Shown one piece after another: positions 6,109-39,186 of a stretch of DNA of 39,186 nucleotides (positions are counted from its first letter, which is position 1; each line of letters begins with the position of its first letter). Position numbers and translations under genes: made by a program. Location of the stretch: contig JAFXXK010000022.1 in the NCBI GenBank assembly GCA_017542305.1, positions 1 through 39,186 of the forward strand. Reading direction: 5' to 3'. This DNA comes from a bacterium (GTDB lineage Bacteria > Cyanobacteriota > Vampirovibrionia > Gastranaerophilales > Gastranaerophilaceae). The notes below the pieces were generated by a model that worked only from the letters and a program-made list of their open reading frames with translations, did no database searches and was not told where the DNA came from.

Positions 6109-6801
6109 TTATACATTCCAAACTATACGGGTAGTCGTTTTTACAGGGTTTGCCGCTTTTTTGAAAACTTTCCAACGCTCATTAAACTCATTTATTGTCG
6201 GCTGATAGTTTTCATCTTCCTGATCTTTATTGTTTTGTTCCATTGTTTTTAATACCAAACAATCCATAAACAGCCATTCAAGCGTAAAACGCTGTCTGTC
6301 ATCTTCCATTAACGGGATATATATATAATCGTCCGCTTTTTCAAATTCAAATTTCAATGTGCCATCTTCCCCGTCAACAACAGGCTCAAAATGATTAAAT
6401 TGTACTCCGAATTTATAATTATCATTAGGTATTGGGTATAATCTTATTTTCGTTTCAGGTGTTTTATAATCAATCCAATAATGTGTCGGTTTGCCTGTTG
6501 CTGTTAAATCATAGCTTTTTGCATTCCCGATAAATATCAAATTCTCTTTTGTATCCTTATTATAAACGGCGGTTATCTGACCGCTGGGTGTTTTATAATT
6601 AGCATTTCCTTTACTTGCGTTTATAGTCTGTTCAGACATCTTAAACGGGAAGTCTACGAGATTTATTAAATACCTTAATGCCCCGTTAAGTTCAGTTCTT
6701 GCCTGTATGCTATCTTCAGATTTGAATATCATATCATCAGCATTAAATCCGCTCCATGCTTTATTGCCTAATTCTGTTAAAATTCTTTGTGCTGTTATCA
6801 T
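6109..6801 (-). CDS. Head-to-tail adaptor / tail tube protein (podovirus type)
   Basis: The 230-residue sequence resembles the short-tail adaptor family (P22 gp4 and T7 gp11 type). It has a helical start (AQRILTELGNKAWSG...ARTELNGALRYLINLVDFPF), beta-rich repeats containing Y-x-L and the phrase IRLYPIPNDNYKFGVQFNHF typical of these proteins, then a helical end. In podoviruses a dodecamer of this protein joins the portal to the tail hub. AAAGAGGT precedes the start. It is the only virion-type gene in the late region on the minus strand, with its own -10 box (TATAAT near 6828-6823) and terminator. The family assignment is by pattern, not by alignment. Confidence 0.65.
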   Translation of the reverse strand: MITAQRILTELGNKAWSGFNADDMIFKSEDSIQARTELNGALRYLINLVDFPFKMSEQTINASKGNANYKTPSGQITAVYNKDTKENLIFIGNAKSYDLTATGKPTHYWIDYKTPETKIRLYPIPNDNYKFGVQFNHFEPVVDGEDGTLKFEFEKADDYIYIPLMEDDRQRFTLEWLFMDCLVLKTMEQNNKDQEDENYQPTINEFNERWKVFKKAANPVKTTTRIVWNV

Positions 6802-6918: not shown

Positions 6919-7379
6919 TGGCTGCAAACACTCAACTCTCATTTATTAATGCTGTTGAATATAATCTCGCTTGTCCGATTACAGGAGTTAAACCAAAAAA
7001 AATTAAAAAAAAGCGAGTGCATTTTAAAGTTCCAACCTATATAAAAAAATATTCGTTTTACAGCGAAAACCCATATACAAACGAGTTACAATATTTAGGC
7101 GATGAAAAACATATATTCAGACACGCAGTATTACAACGCCTGCACTCGATTTTATACGGTTATTGTAACGTTGATATTTTTGAACAGTTTGAGAAAAAAA
7201 ACTATAATGGTTTAATAATCTGGGGAGAAGATAAACAGGCGGAAATTGCCGACACTTGGCAGCTTCCGCTTGGGGATAGGGTTAAAATACATTTAAAGCT
7301 GTTGCGGTTATTGCGTAACGGCTTTTCTGTATCAGAAAGTTTAGAAAGATTGAAAGGAGAAAAGAATGGAAAATTTTGA
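6918..7379 (+). CDS. Hypothetical protein at start of packaging operon, 153 aa
   Basis: It is the first gene of the packaging operon and begins at the predicted transcription start. The protein is basic and mixed alpha/beta; KPKKIKKKRVHFKVPTY is a positively charged stretch and the C-terminal 50 residues are helical. No family is recognised. A regulatory or packaging-accessory role is suggested only by its place before the terminase genes. It overlaps the next gene by 14 bases. Confidence 0.72.
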   Translation: MAANTQLSFINAVEYNLACPITGVKPKKIKKKRVHFKVPTYIKKYSFYSENPYTNELQYLGDEKHIFRHAVLQRLHSILYGYCNVDIFEQFEKKNYNGLIIWGEDKQAEIADTWQLPLGDRVKIHLKLLRLLRNGFSVSESLERLKGEKNGKF

Positions 7380-9265: not shown

Positions 9266-11251
9266 ATGGAAATTAAAAAAGAAGTTGTTGATGTATTCAA
9301 AGAATTACCGAAAGAAAAACGGGATAAATTTGCCGTTAAAATTGCGGAAAAATTTTCAAAATGGGATGAACACAGAAACTCTCAAATTGCAACTGCAAGG
9401 CGAATTATGGAAGAAGTTTATCTCAATCAACCTAAGAAAAAATTTGATGAGGGGTTAGAGTGGAAATCAGACGTAAAACTGAACGCTTTATATAATATTA
9501 AACGTACCAAAAAAGCTGCATTATGGCACGAAATGTGGTCTGAACCTCAGCAGATGTTTGATGTTAAGGGAACTAATCAGGAAACGGAAAACAGTTCAAA
9601 AGAACAAAAAGCCGCACTTGTCGACAGCCTTATTCAAATGGATATAGGCAGACAATACGATAAATCAGCAGATGATTTATATGATATAGGCGAAATGATA
9701 TTTAAAACCGATTGGGAACAACGCAAAAAGGTTATAAAACGCCAAAGAAAAGACGTAGGATTTGTTTTAATGAACCTTGTTCGCAATATGGCAGGAGCCG
9801 GTTATTCTATCCAAGAAAAATTACAGGATATTGAAATCCCATACTATGAGAATGCAAGGGTTGAAAGTATTTCCCCGTTTATGTTTGTTTTTGACCATTC
9901 AAGATTTAAAGTAGGCGATAAACCAAGCTGGGATAGTTTAATCAAAATATATAAGCGGTTTGATACCTTAGAAAATATCAAAAATAACGGGGCTTATACA
10001 ATTGAAAAAGAAACTATTGAAGCCTTAGAAAAGGAAAGCAAAGAAGTACAGACACCCGAAAATAAAGAACTTATAGACCTTAGAGATAGAAACGAATACG
10101 GAAGTCAATACTCCGTTTTGTATGCTCATGGGGATTTTAAGATTCAAGGGAAGTTATATAAAAACTATATTGCAGAAGTGCTTGCAGGAAAATATTTAAT
10201 CAGGTTTGAAGAAAATCCTGCATATATTAATCCGTTTATCTTCTGTGCGTTAGAGTTAGACCCGTTGACAAAACGCGGTATTTCACCGTTAAAATGCGTT
10301 TTACCGCTATGTAAAAAAATGGAAGAATTAACAAATACAGCTATGGATGTTCAGATGCTTAAAGCTAATCCGCCATGCTATGCTGATGAAACATTTTTTG
10401 ATGAAGAAAATACACCGGCTGACGGAAAAATGCCTTTGGCTCCCGGATTAATAATTAAAATAAAAAATACATACAACGGAACTATGCCGCAAGAAGTTAA
10501 AATAAGCGGTGAGGGGATTGGAGATTTATTAAACTTAGGTAATCAGAAAATATCTGATTTATCAAGTGTATCTAACTTTATGTATGGCAACGTCACAGAT
10601 ACCAAAAGAACGGCAACGGAATTAAGCCTTGTGGATAAGGGAGCATCTGCTCAGACCTCTAAAGAATTAGATATTATTAACCAAGATTTAACTATCCCGA
10701 TGATTAAAAATGTCGCGGAACTTCTTGCAATGTTTAAAGACGGCGTTGATTTTGTCTATATGCAAGAAAAAGGCGAAAATGTCGAATATAAAATAACTAA
10801 TCAGATAAGACAAGCTCAATACAATTATGTATATGAGGACAGAAACGCCATTGAAAATCGTAAATCTAAGTTTGAGCAATTATTCCAAATGTTTAATTCA
10901 GTAGGTCAAAACCCTGAATTATTCCAAATGGTTAATTGGCGTGAAACTATTACAACAGCAATAGAAATGCTTGATTTTGAAAACCCTGATAAATTTTTAA
11001 ACGGTACAAGTCCGGCTGAACAATTCGCAGAACAGTTAAAACAGATTCCGCCGGAAGAACAAGAACGCATTGTCGGATTCTTTGCTCAGGAATTAATGGA
11101 TTATCAGCAGAAAATGGCGCAAGATGCGCAGCAGCAAGAAATGCAACAGCAAGCACAAAACCAAGTTGAAATGGATATGATGCGAGAACAAGCAAGACAA
11201 AATGTTGAAAGTGGAATGCTTCAAAATGAGCTTAATCAGCAAATGATTTAG
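9266..11251 (+). CDS. Portal protein (podovirus type)
   Basis: This 661-residue protein is close to the size of P22-type portals, which form the dodecameric ring through which DNA enters and leaves. I prefer ATG 9266 (TTTGGAG 11 bases upstream) to ATG 9230, which lies inside the promoter. Features are a helical N-terminus, a WE-rich wing (SEPQQMFDVKGT...), central regions such as FENPAYINPFIFCALELDP and KRGISPLKCVLPLCKKMEELTN, and a long helical C-terminus ending in a Gln/Met-rich barrel-like tail. It follows terL and precedes scaffold and coat genes. The last 20 bases overlap a small leftward gene. Confidence 0.82.
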   Translation: MEIKKEVVDVFKELPKEKRDKFAVKIAEKFSKWDEHRNSQIATARRIMEEVYLNQPKKKFDEGLEWKSDVKLNALYNIKRTKKAALWHEMWSEPQQMFDVKGTNQETENSSKEQKAALVDSLIQMDIGRQYDKSADDLYDIGEMIFKTDWEQRKKVIKRQRKDVGFVLMNLVRNMAGAGYSIQEKLQDIEIPYYENARVESISPFMFVFDHSRFKVGDKPSWDSLIKIYKRFDTLENIKNNGAYTIEKETIEALEKESKEVQTPENKELIDLRDRNEYGSQYSVLYAHGDFKIQGKLYKNYIAEVLAGKYLIRFEENPAYINPFIFCALELDPLTKRGISPLKCVLPLCKKMEELTNTAMDVQMLKANPPCYADETFFDEENTPADGKMPLAPGLIIKIKNTYNGTMPQEVKISGEGIGDLLNLGNQKISDLSSVSNFMYGNVTDTKRTATELSLVDKGASAQTSKELDIINQDLTIPMIKNVAELLAMFKDGVDFVYMQEKGENVEYKITNQIRQAQYNYVYEDRNAIENRKSKFEQLFQMFNSVGQNPELFQMVNWRETITTAIEMLDFENPDKFLNGTSPAEQFAEQLKQIPPEEQERIVGFFAQELMDYQQKMAQDAQQQEMQQQAQNQVEMDMMREQARQNVESGMLQNELNQQMI

Positions 11252-11351
11252 CCCATAAAAGAGCCATTATTGCTAAGTATAAGAAATAACTGCTTAATGC
11301 AATAATAACAAATAAAGAAATCCATAAAATAATTTTTGGTAAAACTTTCAT
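11232..11351 (-). CDS. Small membrane peptide of cassette A, 39 aa
   Basis: A hydrophobic peptide reads leftward from 11351: a short basic start (MKVLPKII), then a run of about 25 nonpolar residues (WISLFVIIALSSYFLYLAIM) and a short polar end. It would span the membrane once. It has no Shine-Dalgarno site. Its promoter is on the minus strand: TTGATT (11386-11381), 17 bp, TATTAT (11363-11358), then six bases to the ATG, so the message should be leaderless. An equivalent peptide with the same spacing occurs at 16764-16672. Its stop lies inside the end of the portal gene. The function is unknown. Confidence 0.6.
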   Translation of the reverse strand: MKVLPKIILWISLFVIIALSSYFLYLAIMALLWAKSFAD

Positions 11352-11386
11352 ATACATATAATACATCATAATTAAGGAGAAATCAA
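11352..11386. promoter_or_regulatory. Divergent promoter region of cassette A
   Basis: Leftward elements are TTGATT (minus strand, 11386-11381) and TATTAT (11363-11358). Rightward, TATAAT (11357-11362) overlaps the same -10 and AAGGAG (11374-11379) serves the 11390 gene. Because the two -10 boxes overlap almost fully, only one direction can be used at a time. The rightward -35 is poor (TTTGGT at 11335-11340). Confidence 0.6.
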
Positions 11387-11389
11387 TAT

Positions 11390-11953
11390 ATGCGAGATTT
11401 AAACCGAGATTTTAACATAATCAAAACCTTGTTTGGATATAAAAATTTAATAGGTCATCCTATAATGTTAAATAGAGCTCGGAAAGAATATGATGCAATT
11501 AAAGCTCCAAATGGGGAGCTTGAGCAACATTATAATCAATTATCATATAAAGACTTTTTAACGAATGATAATAAAAGTACAATTAGACACCCTTATACTA
11601 ATGCTATGTTTGTTCGAGATTATCCCGCTGATTTTGTTAGAGGTCTGGGAGATTTTAAAGAAGATGTGGATCAAATAGATAATAAACCTTTAGATGATAC
11701 TGCAGGAGATTTAATCAATAACGAATATGGGATTAATTTGGGTTTACGTTATCCTGAAGCCCCTAAAACATTTATATTTGACAATATTTTACAATATGCA
11801 GGTTTACCTGTTCCTGCTAGAAATAATACATTATATGGGTATATTGATAATTTGCCTGATACTAAAGAGGATTTAGACAAATTAAATAAACAAAACGAAT
11901 CGCAATTATTCAGATATTTAATTAATCCTATTGATAAATACGAAAATAAATAA
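11390..11953 (+). CDS. RH/LDDT/NN-core protein of cassette A, 187 aa
   Basis: This and the 16799 protein share a core not found elsewhere in the genome. Here it reads IRHPYTNAM (residues about 64-72), GLGDFKED, PLDDTAGDL and INNEYGINLG (about 109-118); there it reads FRHIAGSAL, ALGNLKES, GLDDTLYDY and GNNQRGIEIG. The R-H ... D ... N-N ... G pattern recalls metal-binding or hydrolase-like cores such as DUF6973, but a zinc site is not certain. It has no signal peptide or membrane span. It lies between portal and scaffold genes and has its own terminator behind it, the usual picture of a moron (added cargo gene). Confidence 0.75.
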   Translation: MRDLNRDFNIIKTLFGYKNLIGHPIMLNRARKEYDAIKAPNGELEQHYNQLSYKDFLTNDNKSTIRHPYTNAMFVRDYPADFVRGLGDFKEDVDQIDNKPLDDTAGDLINNEYGINLGLRYPEAPKTFIFDNILQYAGLPVPARNNTLYGYIDNLPDTKEDLDKLNKQNESQLFRYLINPIDKYENK

Positions 11954-11971
11954 TTTACTTGTTACTTTTTA

Positions 11972-12000
11972 ACCGCTCTCAATATGAGGGTGGTTTTTTT
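11972..12000 (+). terminator. Rho-independent terminator after cassette A
   Basis: ACCGCTCTC (11972-11980) and GAGGGTGGT (11986-11994) form a 9-bp stem with two G.T pairs and an AATAT loop. It is followed by six T. It isolates cassette A from the next late promoter, which begins four bases later. Confidence 0.85.
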
Positions 12001-12003
12001 AGT

Positions 12004-12034
12004 GCCCGATTTTCAAACTGTCATACTGTTTCTA
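12004..12034 (+). promoter_or_regulatory. GCCCG-box late promoter 2 (leaderless)
   Basis: GCCCGATTTT begins at 12004 and the -10-like CATACTG lies at 12022-12028. The A of ATG 12034 is 30 bases after the first G, exactly where transcription should begin. No Shine-Dalgarno lies between. It drives the small head gene, scaffold and coat genes. Confidence 0.62.
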
Positions 12035-12237
12035 TGACAAGTATAGAAGATTTGTTACGGCTTAGAAACGAGATAATACAGCAGCCAATAGGCGGGGTGT
12101 TATTGGAATATCTTTCTGACTACATTACCGCCGAAGCCTGCAAAAATCGCAACGCCGAACAGATTAAAGGGATGTGTGAATTAGTCCAACGGATTAAAGA
12201 CATCCCTAGCAAGGTAGAAAACATTAAGAGGAAATGA
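12034..12237 (+). CDS. Small head-region protein, 67 aa
   Basis: The start is set by the promoter: ATG 12034 coincides with the predicted transcription start, while upstream in-frame TTG codons would lie within the terminator. The protein is helical and charged (SIEDLLRLRNEIIQQPIGGVLLEYLSDYIT...), resembling small helical proteins encoded before scaffolds. Its stop overlaps the next gene. The function is unknown. Confidence 0.65.
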   Translation: MTSIEDLLRLRNEIIQQPIGGVLLEYLSDYITAEACKNRNAEQIKGMCELVQRIKDIPSKVENIKRK

Positions 12238-12239
12238 GA

Positions 12240-13238
12240 ATGACAGAAGAAACAACAATTTCAACACCCGAAGAAACTTCTGAAACTACGGAAACCGCAA
12301 GCACAGAACTTAATTCTACTGAGGAATTAAACACTTCTGAACTTACGCCCGAAACAGAAGAAACAACGGCTGAAACGGAAACGGAAACGACAAGTATTCC
12401 TGACAGTACAGAACCAAAACTTTACGCCGGAAAGTATTCATCTATTGAAGAACTCGAAAAAGGCTATGGCGAACTTAACAAGGCTTATACCCAAGCTAAT
12501 CAGATTAAAGCCAAGTATGACGAAATGCTTAAACAACAGCAGCAGCAACAGGCTTTAAATCTCGAAAAAGCACAAAAAGCAGGGTTTAATTCAGTAGAAG
12601 AACAAGAAATTGCTAAAAGTGTTCAATTGGCGGAATTTAGTGCTTTTTGGAACAATATGAACACAGTACAAGCCGATTATCAGCCTACTGTCCAGCAATT
12701 ATTAACCGAATACTACAAAACCGGGGATGCAGCTTATCTTAAAGAAGCTAAAAAGTTCTTTAACTCTGATTTTCTTGAAAGCGTGGCAGTCGGTAAAAAA
12801 CAGTTTGAACGCCAATTACAAGAAGAAAATGAACAAAAAAGAACTCAAGCAAAGAATGAACGTGATGCACAATTGGCAGATATTATTAAAGCCGATTTTG
12901 CAGAACTTCTTGCAGATGTCAACGAAAACAAAGGCAAAGCACAAGCACTTAAAGCCTTTTGTGATGCTGATTTTATTCAGTCTAAAGAAGATATGCAAGT
13001 TTTTGCGGATATTTACAAACAAATAGCGGATTATGAACGTGCTGCAGCTATTAAGGAATACGAAGCTCAAAAAGTCATTGACCAAACCAAAAGTAAAGCT
13101 GTGATAAACAGCGATAGTACAAACGGGGTTAATCTCGAAGTAAAACGTACTGCTGATGATATTGGTAATATGACACAAAAAGAATTTGATGCTTATTGCA
13201 AAAAACACGGTACGGATTGGATTTACGCCGAGAATTAG
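12240..13238 (+). CDS. Scaffolding protein
   Basis: The 332-residue protein is strongly acidic and Thr/Glu-rich over the first 60 residues, then helical with Gln/Lys/Glu-rich coiled coils and a short C-terminal domain. That is the composition of phage scaffolds, which guide coat assembly and then leave. Position confirms it: it lies directly between portal and major coat. I prefer ATG 12240, eight bases after GAGG, to ATG 12234, which is too close to the ribosome site. Confidence 0.75.
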   Translation: MTEETTISTPEETSETTETASTELNSTEELNTSELTPETEETTAETETETTSIPDSTEPKLYAGKYSSIEELEKGYGELNKAYTQANQIKAKYDEMLKQQQQQQALNLEKAQKAGFNSVEEQEIAKSVQLAEFSAFWNNMNTVQADYQPTVQQLLTEYYKTGDAAYLKEAKKFFNSDFLESVAVGKKQFERQLQEENEQKRTQAKNERDAQLADIIKADFAELLADVNENKGKAQALKAFCDADFIQSKEDMQVFADIYKQIADYERAAAIKEYEAQKVIDQTKSKAVINSDSTNGVNLEVKRTADDIGNMTQKEFDAYCKKHGTDWIYAEN

Positions 13239-13263
13239 CCTAAAAAAGAAAGGATTTTGAAAA

Positions 13264-14139
13264 ATGGCTAATACAACAGGAAATTTTGCAGTACTTACTA
13301 AACCCGAAATATGGTCTAAGTTAATTCTTAGAAACTTAGATGATGTCGGAGTTATGACAGAATGTATCAATCGTGACTATGAGGGTGAAATTAAATATGC
13401 CGGTGATACCGTTCATATTACCCAATTAGGTGGCGTTACAGTTAATACTCATGATGATGATACTCCTATCAATTACCAAACAGTTAACGGTGAACAGCAG
13501 ACACTTGAAATTGACCAGCAAAAGAATTGGGCGTTTGTTATCAAAACTATTGAAGCAAAACAATCTAATATCAAGAATTTACAGGAAAGATTTTCTGCCC
13601 GTGCAAGAAAAGCTATTGCAGATACAAAGGATAAATTCTTGCATACTACCGGCTTTTCAGGGGTTGATGCAGGTAATCAATTAGGTGCTGAAACTGTTAC
13701 AAAAAACAATATTTACGATTTATGTATTTCATTGTATGAAAAACTTGCAGCTTCAAATGCAATTGATTCTAACGGTAAAGCAGAAGATGGAAAACGTCCG
13801 TTCTTAATTTTGCCGCCGGCATTGGTGTCGGTAGTCAAATTATCAGAACAAGCAACTCATTCTACAACTTTGGGTGATGAAACAATCCGCAAGGGTGCTA
13901 TTATGCAGTATGCAGGTTTTGATATTAAACAATCTACATTAATTAAAGCAACAAGCGGTGCTTATAATATCCTTGCAGGTACAAAAGAGGGTATTACTTA
14001 CGCTGATCAGATTATTGAAACCAGAGCATTAGAAGATAAAGATTACTTTGGAATTTTTGTTTCAGGTCTTTATGTTTACGGTGCAAAAGTTGTTCAACCT
14101 AAAGCATTGGCATCTGCTGTTGTTACTATCGGTTCATAA
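13264..14139 (+). CDS. Major capsid protein
   Basis: This 291-residue protein sits straight after the scaffold with a strong AAAGGA site. Its sequence has the layout of HK97-fold coats in P22-like and related phages: an N-terminal arm (KPEIWSKLILRNLDDVGVM), an E-loop region (YEGEIKYAGDTVHITQLGGVTVNTH), a spine helix (NLQERFSARARKAIADTKDKFLH), and a C-terminal beta domain ending GLYVYGAKVVQPKALASAVV. It is followed by a C6/G6 hairpin, as is usual for the most highly expressed late gene. Confidence 0.85.
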   Translation: MANTTGNFAVLTKPEIWSKLILRNLDDVGVMTECINRDYEGEIKYAGDTVHITQLGGVTVNTHDDDTPINYQTVNGEQQTLEIDQQKNWAFVIKTIEAKQSNIKNLQERFSARARKAIADTKDKFLHTTGFSGVDAGNQLGAETVTKNNIYDLCISLYEKLAASNAIDSNGKAEDGKRPFLILPPALVSVVKLSEQATHSTTLGDETIRKGAIMQYAGFDIKQSTLIKATSGAYNILAGTKEGITYADQIIETRALEDKDYFGIFVSGLYVYGAKVVQPKALASAVVTIGS

Positions 14140-14143
14140 TTGT

Positions 14144-14166
14144 AGGGGGGATTTTCCCCCCTATTT
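14144..14166 (+). terminator. Hairpin after the coat gene (partial terminator)
   Basis: AGGGGGG (14144-14150) and CCCCCCT (14156-14162) form a 7-bp G/C stem with an ATTTT loop, followed by ATTTT. The tail is short, so readthrough to the next gene is likely. It probably stabilises and limits the coat message. Confidence 0.7.
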
Positions 14167-14185
14167 TAAAGAAAGGATTTAGAAA

Positions 14186-14527
14186 ATGGTAACTAAAAAA
14201 ACAACTAAAAAAATTACAGTAAATAAAGTAAAAAAAGATGCTGAATTTGTCGAAACGACAAAACCAATTTCTGATGAAGAAAAAATATTTGGTTCTTCCG
14301 TTGAAATCGTGAAAGAAAGAGTTATTAATTATGAAAGCCCAAAAGTTTTATACAAGGTTTATAATTTAAAGCTTAATAACGCTCCTATGACTATTACAGG
14401 AGATTTGGTTGAAACTTTTATCGGTAACAATAACCTTAAAGCAAGGGAAGATCTTAAAAAAGGTGTTAAAACCGTTATTTCAAAAGATACAAACGGTACA
14501 GAATTATATAAAATCGAGGTTTTATAA
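14186..14527 (+). CDS. Hypothetical head protein, 113 aa
   Basis: AAAGGA precedes ATG 14186. The N-terminus is a basic Lys/Thr stretch; the rest is beta-rich (VLYKVYNLKLNNAPMTITGDLVE... then VKTVISKDTNGTELYKIEVL). Small proteins with this build placed after coats are often capsid decoration or head-closure proteins; I do not recognise the family. The stop overlaps the endolysin start by one base. Confidence 0.68.
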   Translation: MVTKKTTKKITVNKVKKDAEFVETTKPISDEEKIFGSSVEIVKERVINYESPKVLYKVYNLKLNNAPMTITGDLVETFIGNNNLKAREDLKKGVKTVISKDTNGTELYKIEVL

Positions 14528-14961
14528 TGGCGTTGAATTTTAAAATGTCAGAATTATTACATTCAGATATTGCAAATATGTATCATATTAACAATACAAC
14601 GACTAATCCTGAACACTTAGATAATATGTTGAACTTGATATTTTATGTTTTGCAGCCGTTAAGAGATATTGTAAAATGCCCCGTTGTAGTTACGGGCGGT
14701 TATCGTTCACAGGCATTATGGCAAAAATTAAAAGACTTAGGCAGAAACCCCGCCAAGAACTCACAACACTTGACGGGGCAAGCCGTTGATATAGTCGTGC
14801 CGCAAAAATACTTATGGGAAGTATTTAAAATCATTAAAGAGCAATTACCTTATGATCAATTGTTATACGAATATGATACACAAGGTCATAGGTGGATTCA
14901 CGTTTCATATAATCACGGGAAAAATAGGCATATTTTTAACGATAATTACAAGGCTAACTAA
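14527..14961 (+). CDS. Peptidase M15-type endolysin
   Basis: The protein is a zinc D-Ala-D-Ala carboxypeptidase-like enzyme (M15_3 family) that cuts peptidoglycan peptides, probably for host lysis. The metal-binding motifs are clear: SQHLTGQAVDI with H81 and D88, and WIHVS with H125. The Glu in LLYEYD (E115) is the likely catalytic residue. VVVTGGYRSQAL (53-64) is also typical. At 144 residues it is a bare catalytic domain with no cell-wall-binding part. No signal peptide is present, so it needs a holin or acts from within the virion. It lies among head genes rather than in a lysis cassette. Confidence 0.9.
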   Translation: MALNFKMSELLHSDIANMYHINNTTTNPEHLDNMLNLIFYVLQPLRDIVKCPVVVTGGYRSQALWQKLKDLGRNPAKNSQHLTGQAVDIVVPQKYLWEVFKIIKEQLPYDQLLYEYDTQGHRWIHVSYNHGKNRHIFNDNYKAN

Positions 14962-15016
14962 TTCTTTTTTTCATACACAAACCTTTAAACATATTAAACT
15001 CTTAAATGCTTTTTAA

Positions 15017-15040
15017 ACCCTCATACGAGGGTATTTTTTT
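15017..15040 (+). terminator. Rho-independent terminator after endolysin
   Basis: ACCCTC (15017-15022), loop ATAC, GAGGGT (15027-15032), then A and seven T. A clear terminator placed ten bases before the next GCCCG-box promoter. Confidence 0.88.
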
Positions 15041-15049
15041 GCTTTTTTT

Positions 15050-15080
15050 GCCCGAAAAAAACAGTTATAAAATACTATTA
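15050..15080 (+). promoter_or_regulatory. GCCCG-box late promoter 3 (leaderless)
   Basis: GCCCG at 15050-15054 (followed by A rather than ATTT) and TAAAAT at 15068-15073 have the same spacing as the other copies. ATG 15080 is 30 bases after the first G, as at 12034. There is no Shine-Dalgarno site before the ATG. Confidence 0.62.
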
Positions 15081-16675
15081 TGGCTTATGCAGTAGAACCT
15101 CAAATATTTACACAGTTTAAAGGAATAAGACAGCTCAACGGAGTATCTTCCGGCGGAGTTATTTCAGCTGTTAAAAGTAAAAATGTTGAACTTATTCAAA
15201 CTGAAATAGGTGCTGAAACGGGGATAAAAACTATGGCAGGGAACAGAATTATATACTCCCTGCCTACAGGCTATAAAGTTATTGGAATATTTCAAAGCGT
15301 ACAAGACGGCGTAACATACAAGTTTATTTATGGTGAAAATTCAAGTAAAGGTACATTGTATTATGTAAATGCGAATGATGAACTTGTGGAAGTGCCCGGG
15401 GCGCCCGATTTTCCCGTTACGGGAAATTGTAACGGGATTACAATGACATCAACCTCTTTTGATGTGTTTGTGTTTACTAACGGCAAAAAGTTTACTGTCA
15501 GCAATACTCAATACTCTTGTATAAGTGTATGTTTCTCTCGAGGTTCGCAAGATTCTGATAAAACGCATAAAATAACTGCAAAAGATAAAGATAATCATGT
15601 GTTAGAGTTTTTATCAATGACTGATTGGAACGGTTTTTTAGTTGTTGCAGATCAATACGGGATTCATGCTTCTAAACAATTAGATATTGAAACATGGGAT
15701 TATACACATACGGGGGCAGCCGACAGCTGGAGCTTTATTATGGGGAAAAAGCCGACTGCGGTCTATTCTTTTACAGGCGGTCTATATGTGTTTACGGGTG
15801 ATGATATTACATTTTTAAGTGATTCACCGAATATATCAACATCAAAAGTAGAAACTGTTGCAGGTTTAGGCTGCTTTAGTTATCAGTCAATACTGAAACA
15901 TGATACATACTTGTTTTTCTATGATAACAAGCAGAAAAATATTTACTACATTGAGAACATTGATACAGGACAGATAAGACCTGCCGGACCTGTTGCAAAA
16001 GAAATACAGTCAAATTTTGCAACGGTTGAAAAATTCAAGATGTTCTCTTGTATTTTTGAAAATAAAAATCAGGTTTGGTGCTTGATTAATGATAAAATAT
16101 TTATCTATGACTATTTTCAACAGGAATGGCTGCAAAGATCCGAACAGAAATTAAACGCTGTTTGTCTGATACAAAACAACGTTTTTACAGGCGGTGATGA
16201 CGGGGTTGTGTATGCTGAATTTATTCAGGATGATTTTTCAGGCGGTTACTATCCTGCTGAATATGAAACTGCGTTTATTAATCTTGGTACATATTCAAAC
16301 ATAAAAAAGCAAAAAACGCCGCTTTTAATAGTTTTAAACGATAATTATGTAAATGATTTCTATGTTCAGCTAACGGTAAACGGAAAAACCAAAAACCCGA
16401 AACATATAAATATTTCATCAGGTGAAAGCGGGGTTTATGCTCATGAAGAAGATTATACGGGTGAAATTGTACCCGAACATTCTATTTATGATAATGATGC
16501 CGCTATTTATGCGGCTGAAAATGTTTATCATAAAAAGGTGGTTGAAGTATCTACACCGCAAACCTGGTACACTATGGGTATCAGATTTTATACAGATACA
16601 AAAGGACAAGGCTTTTTCATCAACTCAATAGAGCTGAAGAATATCAAGATGAAGAACAAAACGAAAGGGCGTTAA
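15080..16675 (+). CDS. Tail hub / packaged-DNA stabilisation protein (P22 gp10 type)
   Basis: This 531-residue beta-rich protein has repeating strands with Phe/Tyr/Val-x motifs (for example YSLPTGYKVIGIFQS, YSFTGGLYVFTGDDITFLS, FFYDNKQKNIYYIE) consistent with a beta-propeller. That is the fold of the gp10/gp12 nozzle proteins that plug the tail of short-tailed phages. The start is fixed by the leaderless promoter. It is followed by cassette B and three ejection-type proteins, in the order expected of P22-like tail genes. The family is assigned by architecture and position. Confidence 0.68.
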   Translation: MAYAVEPQIFTQFKGIRQLNGVSSGGVISAVKSKNVELIQTEIGAETGIKTMAGNRIIYSLPTGYKVIGIFQSVQDGVTYKFIYGENSSKGTLYYVNANDELVEVPGAPDFPVTGNCNGITMTSTSFDVFVFTNGKKFTVSNTQYSCISVCFSRGSQDSDKTHKITAKDKDNHVLEFLSMTDWNGFLVVADQYGIHASKQLDIETWDYTHTGAADSWSFIMGKKPTAVYSFTGGLYVFTGDDITFLSDSPNISTSKVETVAGLGCFSYQSILKHDTYLFFYDNKQKNIYYIENIDTGQIRPAGPVAKEIQSNFATVEKFKMFSCIFENKNQVWCLINDKIFIYDYFQQEWLQRSEQKLNAVCLIQNNVFTGGDDGVVYAEFIQDDFSGGYYPAEYETAFINLGTYSNIKKQKTPLLIVLNDNYVNDFYVQLTVNGKTKNPKHINISSGESGVYAHEEDYTGEIVPEHSIYDNDAAIYAAENVYHKKVVEVSTPQTWYTMGIRFYTDTKGQGFFINSIELKNIKMKNKTKGR

Positions 16676-16764
16676 ACCATAATGAAAAAATACATAAAAG
16701 GGGATAACGCAATAAAAACTAATACTAATAATATTCTCAATATTGTTTTAAATATTTTGTTCAT
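16672..16764 (-). CDS. Small membrane peptide of cassette B, 30 aa
   Basis: Leftward from 16764, the peptide starts MNKIFKTILR and continues with a nonpolar stretch (ILLVLVFIALSPFMYFFIMV). The promoter matches cassette A: TTGATT on the minus strand (16799-16794), 17 bp, TATTAT (16776-16771), six bases, ATG. The basic start and the shared IALS in the membrane run suggest it is a relative of the 39-residue peptide. The stop overlaps the end of the tail hub gene. No Shine-Dalgarno is seen, so a leaderless mRNA is expected. Confidence 0.6.
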   Translation of the reverse strand: MNKIFKTILRILLVLVFIALSPFMYFFIMV

Positions 16765-16799
16765 ATAACTATAATAACAAAAATCTGGGGAAAAATCAA
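16765..16799. promoter_or_regulatory. Divergent promoter region of cassette B
   Basis: It has the same plan as at 11352-11386. A leftward TTGATT/TATTAT pair is separated by 17 bp, and a rightward TATAAT (16770-16775) overlaps it. A GGGGAAA ribosome site serves the 16799 gene, and AATCAA of the leftward -35 overlaps the first base of its start codon. The rightward -35 is poor. Confidence 0.6.
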
Positions 16800-17170
16800 T
16801 GGATGATAGAGATAAATTATTTGACTTAATTACAGCTTATGGAAAATATGAAGATGCATTAGATGCGATCAAAAAATATAATCGTGCTGATACTGTAAAT
16901 ATGTCTGAAAATGAAATGAATAAATTTAGGCATATTGCAGGTTCGGCATTGTTAAGTGATATATTTACGCCTAAAGTTGTTACCGCATTAGGGAATTTAA
17001 AAGAATCAAAAGATATGTTAGTAGGGCGTGGGCTTGATGATACTTTATATGATTATGGCAATAATCAACGTGGAATTGAAATTGGGAATAAATTTCGTGG
17101 GGTAAATCCGCAATCACTTTTTGATTATATTTTTAAAACTGAAATTGAACCATATAGGACTAAAAAATGA
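16799..17170 (+). CDS. RH/LDDT/NN-core protein of cassette B, 123 aa
   Basis: This is a shorter relative of the 11390 protein. The shared core is FRHIAGSALLSD (residues 43-54), GNLKESKDML, GLDDTLYDYGNNQRGIEIG (78-96) and FDYIF. It lacks most of the N- and C-terminal extensions of the 187-residue copy, so the core is the functional unit. It carries no signal peptide or membrane span. The stop is coupled to the next gene by an ATGA overlap. The function is unknown; DUF6973-like similarity is suggestive only. Confidence 0.75.
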   Translation: MDDRDKLFDLITAYGKYEDALDAIKKYNRADTVNMSENEMNKFRHIAGSALLSDIFTPKVVTALGNLKESKDMLVGRGLDDTLYDYGNNQRGIEIGNKFRGVNPQSLFDYIFKTEIEPYRTKK

Positions 17171-17535
17171 TTATTGACAGATGCCGGGATTACGAGGAAT
17201 TTAAAGAATTTTTTGAAAAATATCCCATGAATGATAATTACTTTCCGCCGAATTTTGTTATAAACAATCCCGATTTGATATGCGGTTATAACGAAATAAC
17301 AGGGAAATTAGAAAGATATTGTAATCCTTATCAGGTTGACGGTGATATTTATATTTCCGGCGCAAGTATAAGGGGAAACTTGCCCGAAAATGTAACGTTT
17401 ATAATCAAAATATGTAATGCGTTAAATAAGGATATATACGCAGAAACAGACATAAAAACCGCAAGAATTGTATTAAACAGAGCGGGATTTAAGAATTTAT
17501 CAAATAACTTATATGTGAGGTATAAAAATGGGTAA
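17167..17535 (+). CDS. GNAT-like hypothetical protein, 122 aa
   Basis: It overlaps the cassette B gene as ATGA. The protein has a GNAT-like arrangement: an early strand-helix (DRCRDYEEFKEFFEKY), central strands around GYNEITGKLERYCNPYQV, then IRGNLPENVTFIIKICNALNKDIYAETDIKTARIVLNRAGFK, which recalls the acyl-CoA-binding loop and helix of small acetyltransferases. A clear CoA pocket cannot be shown. Such proteins occur in tail or ejection regions of several podoviruses. Confidence 0.62.
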   Translation: MIIDRCRDYEEFKEFFEKYPMNDNYFPPNFVINNPDLICGYNEITGKLERYCNPYQVDGDIYISGASIRGNLPENVTFIIKICNALNKDIYAETDIKTARIVLNRAGFKNLSNNLYVRYKNG

Positions 17536-32547: not shown

Positions 32548-32779
32548 ATTTATTGAGTATGCACCTATAATAATTGTCGTGCTTGGCTTTATCTTACAAA
32601 ACAATATATTTGTTAAGCCTGATACTATGAAAGACGAGTTTGCAAAATTTGAGCATGCTATGGAAAAAAAATTTGTATTAAAAGAAACGCATGACCTTGC
32701 TATATCTGAAATGAAATCAGATATTGAAGAAATAAAAGATAAAATTAATCGAATTTATGATAAACTTATGGCTGGGTAG
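32540..32779 (+). CDS. Membrane-anchored small protein, 79 aa (holin-like)
   Basis: The start is GTG 32540 after GGGGGAG, inside the previous gene. One membrane segment (IEYAPIIIVVLGFILQNNIF, about 4-23) is followed by a charged helical tail. Size and layout match small holin or hemolysin XhlA-like proteins that would release the M15 endolysin. The assignment is tentative. Its end overlaps the end of the leftward secreted-protein gene by 14 bases. Confidence 0.6.
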   Translation: MDKFIEYAPIIIVVLGFILQNNIFVKPDTMKDEFAKFEHAMEKKFVLKETHDLAISEMKSDIEEIKDKINRIYDKLMAG

Positions 32780-33191
32780 GATTTATTAAAGGATTTTCTT
32801 TAAAATCTACCATACAAAAAACTCGATAATATCCGTCTGCATATGTTTCAGGAATAATCGGATTCCAATCAACATTATTATCTGAATATATGATATTTTG
32901 TTTTAAATCGTAAACCGTATATGTTTCTATTCTTGATTTTTGATTGATACAGTCAATATTCCATCTATTCATTGAATACCAATAATCTGTCATTTTCCCC
33001 ATATAGTTTGGAAATTTTTCTTTTGGGTCCTTTCGTAAATTTTTAGTCCAAAATTTTACTATTTTATAGTTTTCATTTACATCTATTGATTCAATATCAA
33101 TATATTTTTTTTCAAACAATTCTAACCATTGAGCAGCAAATACGGGTGTTGTTACAAATAATAATAAAATGAGAATTAAAATCTTTTTCAT
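32766..33191 (-). CDS. Secreted adhesin-E-like protein, possible conversion gene
   Basis: A Sec signal peptide (KKILILILLLFVTTPVFA, cleavage after VFA) starts this 141-residue protein. The mature part (QWLELFEKKYIDIESIDVNE then KIVKFWTKNLRK) resembles the surface-adhesin E family, which occurs in Gram-negative bacteria. Two Cys near residues 82 and 128 could form a disulfide. It lies 11 bases behind the repressor gene on the same strand with AAAGGAG, so it would be made in lysogens. That makes it a candidate lysogenic-conversion factor. Confidence 0.72.
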   Translation of the reverse strand: MKKILILILLLFVTTPVFAAQWLELFEKKYIDIESIDVNENYKIVKFWTKNLRKDPKEKFPNYMGKMTDYWYSMNRWNIDCINQKSRIETYTVYDLKQNIIYSDNNVDWNPIIPETYADGYYRVFCMVDFKENPLINPTQP

Positions 33192-38412: not shown

Positions 38413-39132
38413 ATGAGTAGAGAAAATATAAATGGTGGTTATATTATTCTAGCTCGGCGATTAATTGAATCTGAAATATGGAGAAAGCCGCCTGCATATC
38501 TAAAAATATGGATATACATTTTGTATCAGGTGAACTTCAAAAATACAAAAATCTTTCCCCGTGGCACAGGTTTTTTTAATTTTCGACAAGAGCAAATCCC
38601 CGGTGTAACACTTAATCAGGTGTATGAATTTCTGAGATGGGCGAAAACATTGAACCCCACGGATTTAACAACACAGATAACAACACAGAAAACAACACGG
38701 GGAATAGTGCTTAAAGTCAATAATTACAATTATTATCAGGATATAGAAAATTACATTCCCCAACACAGAAACCAACACAAAAACCAACAAACCACCAACA
38801 CTATAACAGGAAAGAAAGAAAGAAAGAGAGAGATTATAAATAATCTCTCTCTAAGCGAGAGCGAAATTTTAAAAAATTATCTTTTGAGCAGAAAACGAAA
38901 AGAACCTATTTATGACATTGATGCTTACATAGCTTTAATCGTTAAAAACGGTTCATTACAAACTAAACTGGAAAAGGCTTTGAAGTGGCAGGCAAAACAA
39001 GAACAGAAAAAGCAAAAGGAAATTTCTGCCGCCGCAGAAAAAATCGAAGAAATTCAAGAAGATGAAGAAACAAAAAAAGCGGCTTATGAGAAGTTCAAAA
39101 AAGCCGCTAAAGAGTTAAGAAAAATAAAATAA
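38413..39132 (+). CDS. Phage replisome organiser (DnaD-like N-terminus)
   Basis: GGAGA before ATG 38413 sets the start. The N-terminus (GGYIILARRLIESEIWRKPP, YLKIWIYILYQVNFKNTKIF, then FFNFRQEQIPGVTLNQVYEF) matches replisome-organiser proteins that open the phage origin and load the helicase. A low-complexity Gln/Thr/Asn stretch then leads to a Lys/Glu-rich C-terminal region (SESEILKNYLLSRKRKEPIY ... LKWQAKQEQKKQKE). Its end crosses the artificial ends of the window and is repeated at 1-87. The direct-repeat-like CAACACAGAAACCAACAC part of the gene may be the origin. Confidence 0.8.
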   Translation: MSRENINGGYIILARRLIESEIWRKPPAYLKIWIYILYQVNFKNTKIFPRGTGFFNFRQEQIPGVTLNQVYEFLRWAKTLNPTDLTTQITTQKTTRGIVLKVNNYNYYQDIENYIPQHRNQHKNQQTTNTITGKKERKREIINNLSLSESEILKNYLLSRKRKEPIYDIDAYIALIVKNGSLQTKLEKALKWQAKQEQKKQKEISAAAEKIEEIQEDEETKKAAYEKFKKAAKELRKIK

Positions 39133-39186
39133 GGAGAAGAAAATGACAAAATCAAACTTGAAAGAAAAAGAAGACACTACAAACAA
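39046..39186. repeat. End redundancy, copy 2
   Basis: Identical to 1-141. It ends inside the first 15 codons of the gene that begins at 98 (39143 here). It should be trimmed once when the genome is circularised. Confidence 0.95.
39143..39186 (+). CDS. 5' fragment of the 98-619 gene (duplicate)
   Basis: The first 14 codons of the 98-619 gene, repeated because of the end overlap. It is not a truncated gene. Confidence 0.93.
   Translation, partial: MTKSNLKEKEDTTN

Follow-up and report, generated by a model that had tools for sequence, protein, structure and literature searches.

Divergent pairs of a DUF6973-like gene and a short membrane-peptide gene in a Gastranaerophilaceae phage: candidate effector-immunity morons

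What is the role of two small divergent gene pairs that lie at separate places in one phage genome, each made up of a leftward membrane peptide and a rightward protein with a common core? The question is raised by a stretch of 39,186 nucleotides from a bacterium of the family Gastranaerophilaceae (GenBank assembly GCA_017542305.1, contig JAFXXK010000022.1, positions 1 to 39,186 of the forward strand), referred to here as the window, in which an earlier note had correctly delimited cassette A (11232-11953) and cassette B (16672-17170). Of the readings offered there (superinfection exclusion, a membrane toxin with partner, or an envelope-modifying enzyme), the toxin with partner is the best. Each cassette is probably (probability about 0.6) a phage moron encoding an envelope-acting effector and a membrane immunity peptide. 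The rightward protein, a relative of the domain of unknown function DUF6973, would be an antibacterial effector made together with the late genes and with the cell envelope as its site of action and membrane lipid as its probable target. The leftward peptide would be located in the inner membrane and protect the carrier; if its gene is transcribed independently, into a mRNA that lacks a leader, it could be made in the lysogen, in which the late genes are silent. The candidate effector gene adjoins a gene that could protect its carrier, the arrangement by which effector-immunity modules are recognized.

The DUF6973 family and its divergent membrane partner

The rightward proteins of A (187 amino acids; 11390-11953, + strand, preceded by the Shine-Dalgarno (SD) sequence AAGGAG) and B (123 amino acids; 16799-17170, + strand, structure model with a pLDDT of 83) are homologous, with an E-value of 5.9e-6 in the whole genome and 29% identity across residues 27-113 of B. 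The core described for them ([IF]RH, LDDT and NN..GI..G) is real: H45, E69, D85, N88, N89 and G92 (B numbering) do not vary across the 29 rows of an alignment that includes both proteins (A5), and one relative lacks N88 in a 10-row alignment (A1). Relative to canonical DUF6973 proteins, A and B have lost the H of HE and the DAF preceding H, and their matches to the family model (PF22322) fall below its cut-off of 27 bits (21.2 for A, 14.2 for B). A profile of 44 canonical members reaches B at 4.7e-5, A at 1.4e-4 and L013, a B orthologue, at 1.3e-7, the weakest homologue (L015) lying at 5.6e-4 and the best unrelated open reading frame (ORF) of the window at 0.0019. By these sequence comparisons, A and B are distant DUF6973 homologues, linked through intermediates, and not formal members, and the resemblance to DUF6973-type proteins noted earlier was correctly drawn. 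That the cassettes are close twins is not supported: B is 44-49% identical to genes from other genomes (L011-L013) and only about 24-29% identical to A, and a tree, in which only 2 of 18 inner branches are well supported, places A on a long branch and does not join it to B. A recent duplication is not supported, and A and B look like separate acquisitions.

The conserved unit is real and reaches far beyond the window. In a set of 88 DUF6973 loci (the best 80 of 206 genome loci plus 8 loci from viral contigs), a loose rule finds a divergent hydrophobic ORF beside 73 of the 88 genes, two of these ORFs being shorter than 40 amino acids. A strict rule, requiring such an ORF to be of at least 80 amino acids and directly upstream, is satisfied by 67 of 83 DUF6973 genes (the 88 loci minus 5 lacking upstream DNA) and by 16 of 310 control genes, which are other genes of the same loci; near-identical loci are kept in both counts, as they are in the count of phage-linked loci given below. 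Membrane partners are typically 110-149 amino acids long, and some loci without a divergent partner carry a convergent or same-strand membrane protein instead. The named loci are mostly from Gastranaerophilales, Melainabacteria or Cyanobacteria, with one from Fusobacterium and one labelled Heliobacteriaceae, and many are designated just 'bacterium'. The plan said to be seen nowhere else is confined to A and B within the window, but this type of pair recurs in related genomes and viral contigs; the pair is found with the same layout in other phages, and the view of it as a unit under selection is supported. A third DUF6973 gene of the same host genome (L068, contig C10, about 48.4 kb) has a divergent membrane partner and a WVTMNGAHV tail; it was missed by the pair rule because the partner frame does not begin with ATG. 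The membrane gene is present twice at L201, L192, L058, L063 and L065, suggesting that cassettes may be stacked.

Within the order, B was matched in 16 of 383 genomes and A in 18 of 383, both counts including the host genome and that for B including two proteins (L023, L025) that are M16-type peptidases by interpretation and were dropped; L017, L021 and L022, also matched by B, are canonical DUF6973 members. Of 97 relatives, 29 have DUF6973 (25 of them above the cut-off), as does 1 of 14 control genomes. The eight viral-contig loci, all of canonical members, came from an IMG/VR scan with alignment A2; no match there was obtained with B, A or the alignments A3 and A4. No relative of B or of the canonical member L100 was found in the phage collection, PHROGs gave no match for A and only weak matches to uncharacterised families for B, and B alone retrieved no relevant chain from the PDB (best E 0.23). 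Membership of a known anti-phage defence system was rejected: A, B, the A peptide and one large partner all failed to match a PADLOC model at E-values of up to 1, and L100 had a single weak match (PDC-S02, E 0.018). A literature search limited to the names DUF6973 and PF22322 found no paper, and the papers retrieved for Gastranaerophilales and prophage were, in the portions available, on other subjects.

Promoter geometry of the membrane genes

The leftward peptide of A (39 amino acids; 11232-11351, - strand) has its stop codon within the end of the portal gene, and its open frame would permit 45 amino acids from a start at 11369; that of B (30 amino acids; 16672-16764, - strand) overlaps the end of the upstream gene by 4 bp. 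Both are preceded on the - strand by a putative leaderless-type promoter, TTGATT-17-TATTAT, placed 6 nucleotides before the ATG: 11358-11386 in A (-35 box 11386-11381, -10 box 11363-11358, ATG from 11351) and 16771-16799 in B (-35 box 16799-16794, -10 box 16776-16771, ATG from 16764). The promoter geometry had been reported as identical, and it is; the exact pattern occurs twice in the window, at A and B only, and never in 100 dinucleotide shuffles, so that random sequence does not produce it at a similar rate. With three mismatches allowed, the window shows no enrichment (6 found, 8.5 expected). A rightward TATAAT (11357-11362 and 16770-16775, + strand) does overlap the leftward -10 box at both cassettes, as had been proposed, but a rightward promoter-like pair (TTTAAA-17-TATAAT) is listed for B only, and none for A. 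The similarity noted between the two peptides is present but weak (shuffle p 0.016).

The 'six bases and ATG' extend to the family. In 61 distinct partners (out of 73, leaving aside redundant ones, overlapping ones and those shorter than 80 amino acids or farther away than 75 bp), the ATG is preceded by T at -12 in 82%, A at -11 in 87%, T at -7 in 84% and T at -1 in 92% of cases. The resulting T-A---T motif lies 6 nucleotides from the ATG in 43 of the 61 partners and 7 nucleotides away in another 8; the 6-nucleotide spacing is reached on average 4.3 times, and 12 times at most, in mononucleotide shuffles of the same stretches, and it is found in 11 of 162 other genes from 12 context stretches, 2 of 44 window genes and 13 of 73 genes without an SD sequence (context and window sets pooled), the starts of control genes being first ATGs and hence in some cases wrong. 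Among the partners, 1 of 61 has an SD-like sequence; the DUF6973 genes have one in 56 of 61 cases and the other genes in 101 of 162. The spacing and the near absence of SD sequences point to a leaderless membrane gene, and the feature as a whole, being family-wide, suggests a leaderless start for the guard gene, as the putative immunity gene is called here. It is also found in three of four partners of convergent layout, and so follows the guard gene rather than the divergent arrangement.

Insertion sites in the phage genome

The window is an entire contig (G000:C7). A 141-bp direct repeat at its ends (1-141 and 39046-39186) suggests that it is the whole genome of a circularly mapping phage, with 39,045 unique bases, and the phage is probably temperate, to judge by its terminase, RecT and S24 repressor, the last encoded leftward. 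Cassette A lies, as the earlier note had it, behind the portal gene, which matches a head-tail adaptor/portal family (PHROG 332). Its insert (11252-12002, site 1) runs from the portal stop to a flank common to relatives (TGCCCG..., from 12003), the right limit being an interpretation; in the following gene, homology starts further inside the ORF listed at 11959-12237. An intrinsic-terminator-like hairpin follows A (11971-11995, + strand; 11 pairs, 5 GC, T-rich tail), one being found where 0.5 would be expected from shuffles; no such hairpin is listed after the stop codon of B. The insert of cassette B (16676-17166, site 2) lies between the gene at 15080-16675, the putative tail-hub gene of the earlier note, and the gene at 17167-17535.

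Four syntenic phages are available for comparison: L081, with a portal protein 63% identical to that of the window, and L214, L215 and L216, with 55-61% identity in the 15080-16675 gene, which is matched in 5 of 383 genomes, the host included. Site 2 is empty in three of the four, the flanking genes overlapping in TAATG in L214 and L215 and lying 10 bp apart in L216. In L081, it is occupied by a 72-amino acid leftward membrane ORF, which overlaps the upstream gene by 4 bp, and a 38-amino acid rightward ORF, with no DUF6973. Site 1 of L081 contains a DUF6973-like gene and a leftward hydrophobic ORF that overlaps the portal end and has 39 amino acids, as in A; in L215, a small gene (a 52-amino acid rightward ORF) stands in place of cassette A. 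The L214 stretch ends before site 1, and no fully empty site 1 was found among the syntenic phages. L216 encodes at this site (6973-7254 of the reverse complement) a 93-amino acid leftward protein with a signal-peptide-like start and YGYNAxGxYVP repeats.

The classical morons of lambdoid phages are extra genes that stand between two genes which adjoin each other in relatives, and they have a promoter and a terminator of their own. The cassettes resemble them as extra DNA between such genes, which is what is found at site 2, and differ from them in consisting of two genes back to back, one of them apparently leaderless. Judged by gene order, the layout corresponds to morons inserted at two hot spots. 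Since 31 of the 88 DUF6973 loci have homologues of the portal, terminase, capsid or 15080-16675 gene of the window phage within 3 kb, many cassettes lie in phage structural regions; a 32nd locus (L124) has a methyltransferase match only.

Elsewhere in the window, an SU10 adaptor-like gene (6109-6801, - strand; 24.5 bits, cut-off 27) is inverted upstream of the terminase. Its homologue lies between the 14186 and 15080 genes in all four syntenic phages, a place held in the window by an M15 peptidase gene (14527-14961). An Adhesin_E-like protein with a signal-peptide-like start (32769-33191, - strand) is encoded next to the S24 repressor, on the same strand, and is a possible lysogenic-conversion gene.

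Proposed envelope target, rival explanations and significance

Many DUF6973 proteins carry a C-terminal tag, YTREEIGxMSxDEF ... YTRSDGTxVxGYYR or WVTINGxHV (seen at L176, L184, L190, L191, L192, L197 and L205), which is absent from A and B. A GH108 muramidase (97.7 bits) shares the tag, as do Lipase_3 proteins (32.4 and 25.9 bits, with 21.6 bits falling narrowly short of the cut-off of 22) and transglycosylase-like proteins whose match is weak (17.6 bits, under the cut-off). It further occurs on a Mu F-like minor head protein (27.8 bits against a cut-off of 29.6) and on a protein adjoining what is interpreted as a capsid gene, and might serve as a signal for delivery or packaging. It was rejected as a mark of phage-linked members, with 16 of 29 proteins tagged near phage genes and 27 of 50 elsewhere (proteins shorter than 150 amino acids dropped; L124 included in the phage-linked set of 32). 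Upstream of the tagged muramidase lies an LprI lysozyme inhibitor (42 bits), and the class-3 lipases (Lipase_3), which adjoin apparent housekeeping genes by interpretation, have a divergent membrane partner related to those of DUF6973: a hidden Markov model (HMM) of the latter reaches five lipase partners at E 3.5e-11 to 1.5e-3 (best decoy 0.014), the weakest having a best-domain E (0.0033) close to that of a reversed decoy (0.0049) and the other four standing well clear. Guards match their targets, secreted for the muramidase and membrane-bound for lipases and DUF6973, which would place the target of DUF6973 in the membrane; that it acts on lipid is a guess by analogy.

An enterobacterial Rhs protein encoded next to ydcD, at what we take to be the rhsE locus of E. 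coli K-12, likewise ends in a DUF6973 domain. This pair is like those of the window in that domain and in a neighbour with an apparent membrane anchor at its N-terminus, and unlike them in that the domain is part of a large Rhs protein and the neighbour is on the same strand. YdcD had no significant match among the anchored same-strand neighbours of some DUF6973 genes with which it was compared (best E 0.027, reversed decoy 0.056). For RhsE of enterohaemorrhagic E. coli (perhaps another gene), an adhesin-like C-terminus and a membrane-anchored immunity protein have been proposed in silico, and a serum amyloid A1 match has been reported for another Rhs protein in that study (PMC7216683). DUF6973 further matches BteO (PDB 9uu0), a type VI secretion system effector of Bacteroides fragilis, in sequence and, for a canonical member, also in fold; unlike the window proteins, BteO is an effector of a bacterium and not of a phage, it was not among the matches listed for the fold search with the B model, and no paper on BteO in B. 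fragilis was found by name. In PDB profile searches, serum amyloid A appears at E 0.055 (A1) and 0.39 (A5) and Wnt-7a at 1.2 (A5), values not significant alone, and the unrelated DsbA does better with A1 (0.024). Both follow in PDB fold searches with the L088 and B models, in alignments that lie around the conserved E and N..G positions. Wnt-like proteins have been proposed to be of bacterial ancestry; the resemblance is a lead only.

Phages are known to carry pairs of this general kind. In the telocin of Klebsiella telomere phages, the immunity protein ImmA resides in the inner membrane and has four predicted hydrophobic helices (PMC12042878); TelA-ImmA is like the cassettes as a phage-carried toxin-immunity pair with a membrane immunity protein, and unlike them in its toxin. 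The available part of that report mentions neither a leaderless mRNA nor a divergent arrangement, nor placement at two sites among structural genes. The main rival, superinfection exclusion, is possible, although unlikely: the DUF6973 protein, in or with the virion, would open the envelope for DNA entry, and the peptide of the lysogen would block it and exclude related phages. A precedent exists in T4, in which Spackle blocks the gp5 lysozyme (PMC7677548), Spackle being, like the peptides as proposed here, a small envelope protein inhibiting a phage envelope enzyme, but a periplasmic one with a lysozyme as its target. The 31 loci near structural or terminase genes and the tag on the minor head protein and beside the apparent capsid gene are consistent with such an entry function, which is harder to reconcile with the lack of the tag in A and B, its equal frequency away from phage genes, the tagged lipases beside apparent housekeeping genes, and the Rhs protein and BteO, which are not phage proteins. 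A contribution to host lysis, through outer-membrane damage by the DUF6973 protein with the peptide as a brake made in the lysogen, is the least probable explanation of all; the position on the late strand at both sites would suit it, as would the diderm envelope of the host group, but the phage already has an M15 peptidase, three of the four syntenic phages have no cassette at site 2, and the family also occurs outside phages.

Some results weigh against the effector-immunity interpretation. A divergent partner is present at just 6 of 20 other loci of A/B type, promoter-like sites in the cassette gaps are not in excess over shuffles (7 vs 5.8; 4 vs 4.6), and the HMM of the multi-helix partner family does not place the window peptides above decoys (E 0.029 for the 39-residue peptide of A and 0.42 for the 30-residue peptide of B; best shuffled decoy 0.014). 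The case for these two short peptides as guards is a weak one, based on position, promoter and the L081 parallel. They might even be chance hydrophobic frames in AT-rich gaps, only the DUF6973 genes being of importance, an idea favoured by the missing homology to the larger partners and by the unexceptional number of promoter-like sites. It is nevertheless improbable, given the exact promoter geometry found twice and in none of the shuffles, the ORF of equal length at the same site in L081, and the family-wide rules of 6-nucleotide promoter spacing and divergent partners.

The effector-immunity interpretation might extend further, in a speculation we consider doubtful. The cassettes would form a family of exchangeable conflict units of phages and bacteria, each joining an all-helical envelope enzyme, with the BteO fold and possibly that of the animal proteins serum amyloid A and Wnt, to a membrane inhibitor made from a leaderless mRNA; the phage versions would combine an entry enzyme with a superinfection-exclusion lock, and the window would hold the most reduced form, with a single-helix inhibitor. 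At the level of the family, a domain of unknown function, DUF6973, gains a testable role, that of an envelope effector, and a partner. The regulatory rule looks general in this group of organisms: the guard gene is apparently leaderless and independent, and the effector gene follows a ribosome-binding site.

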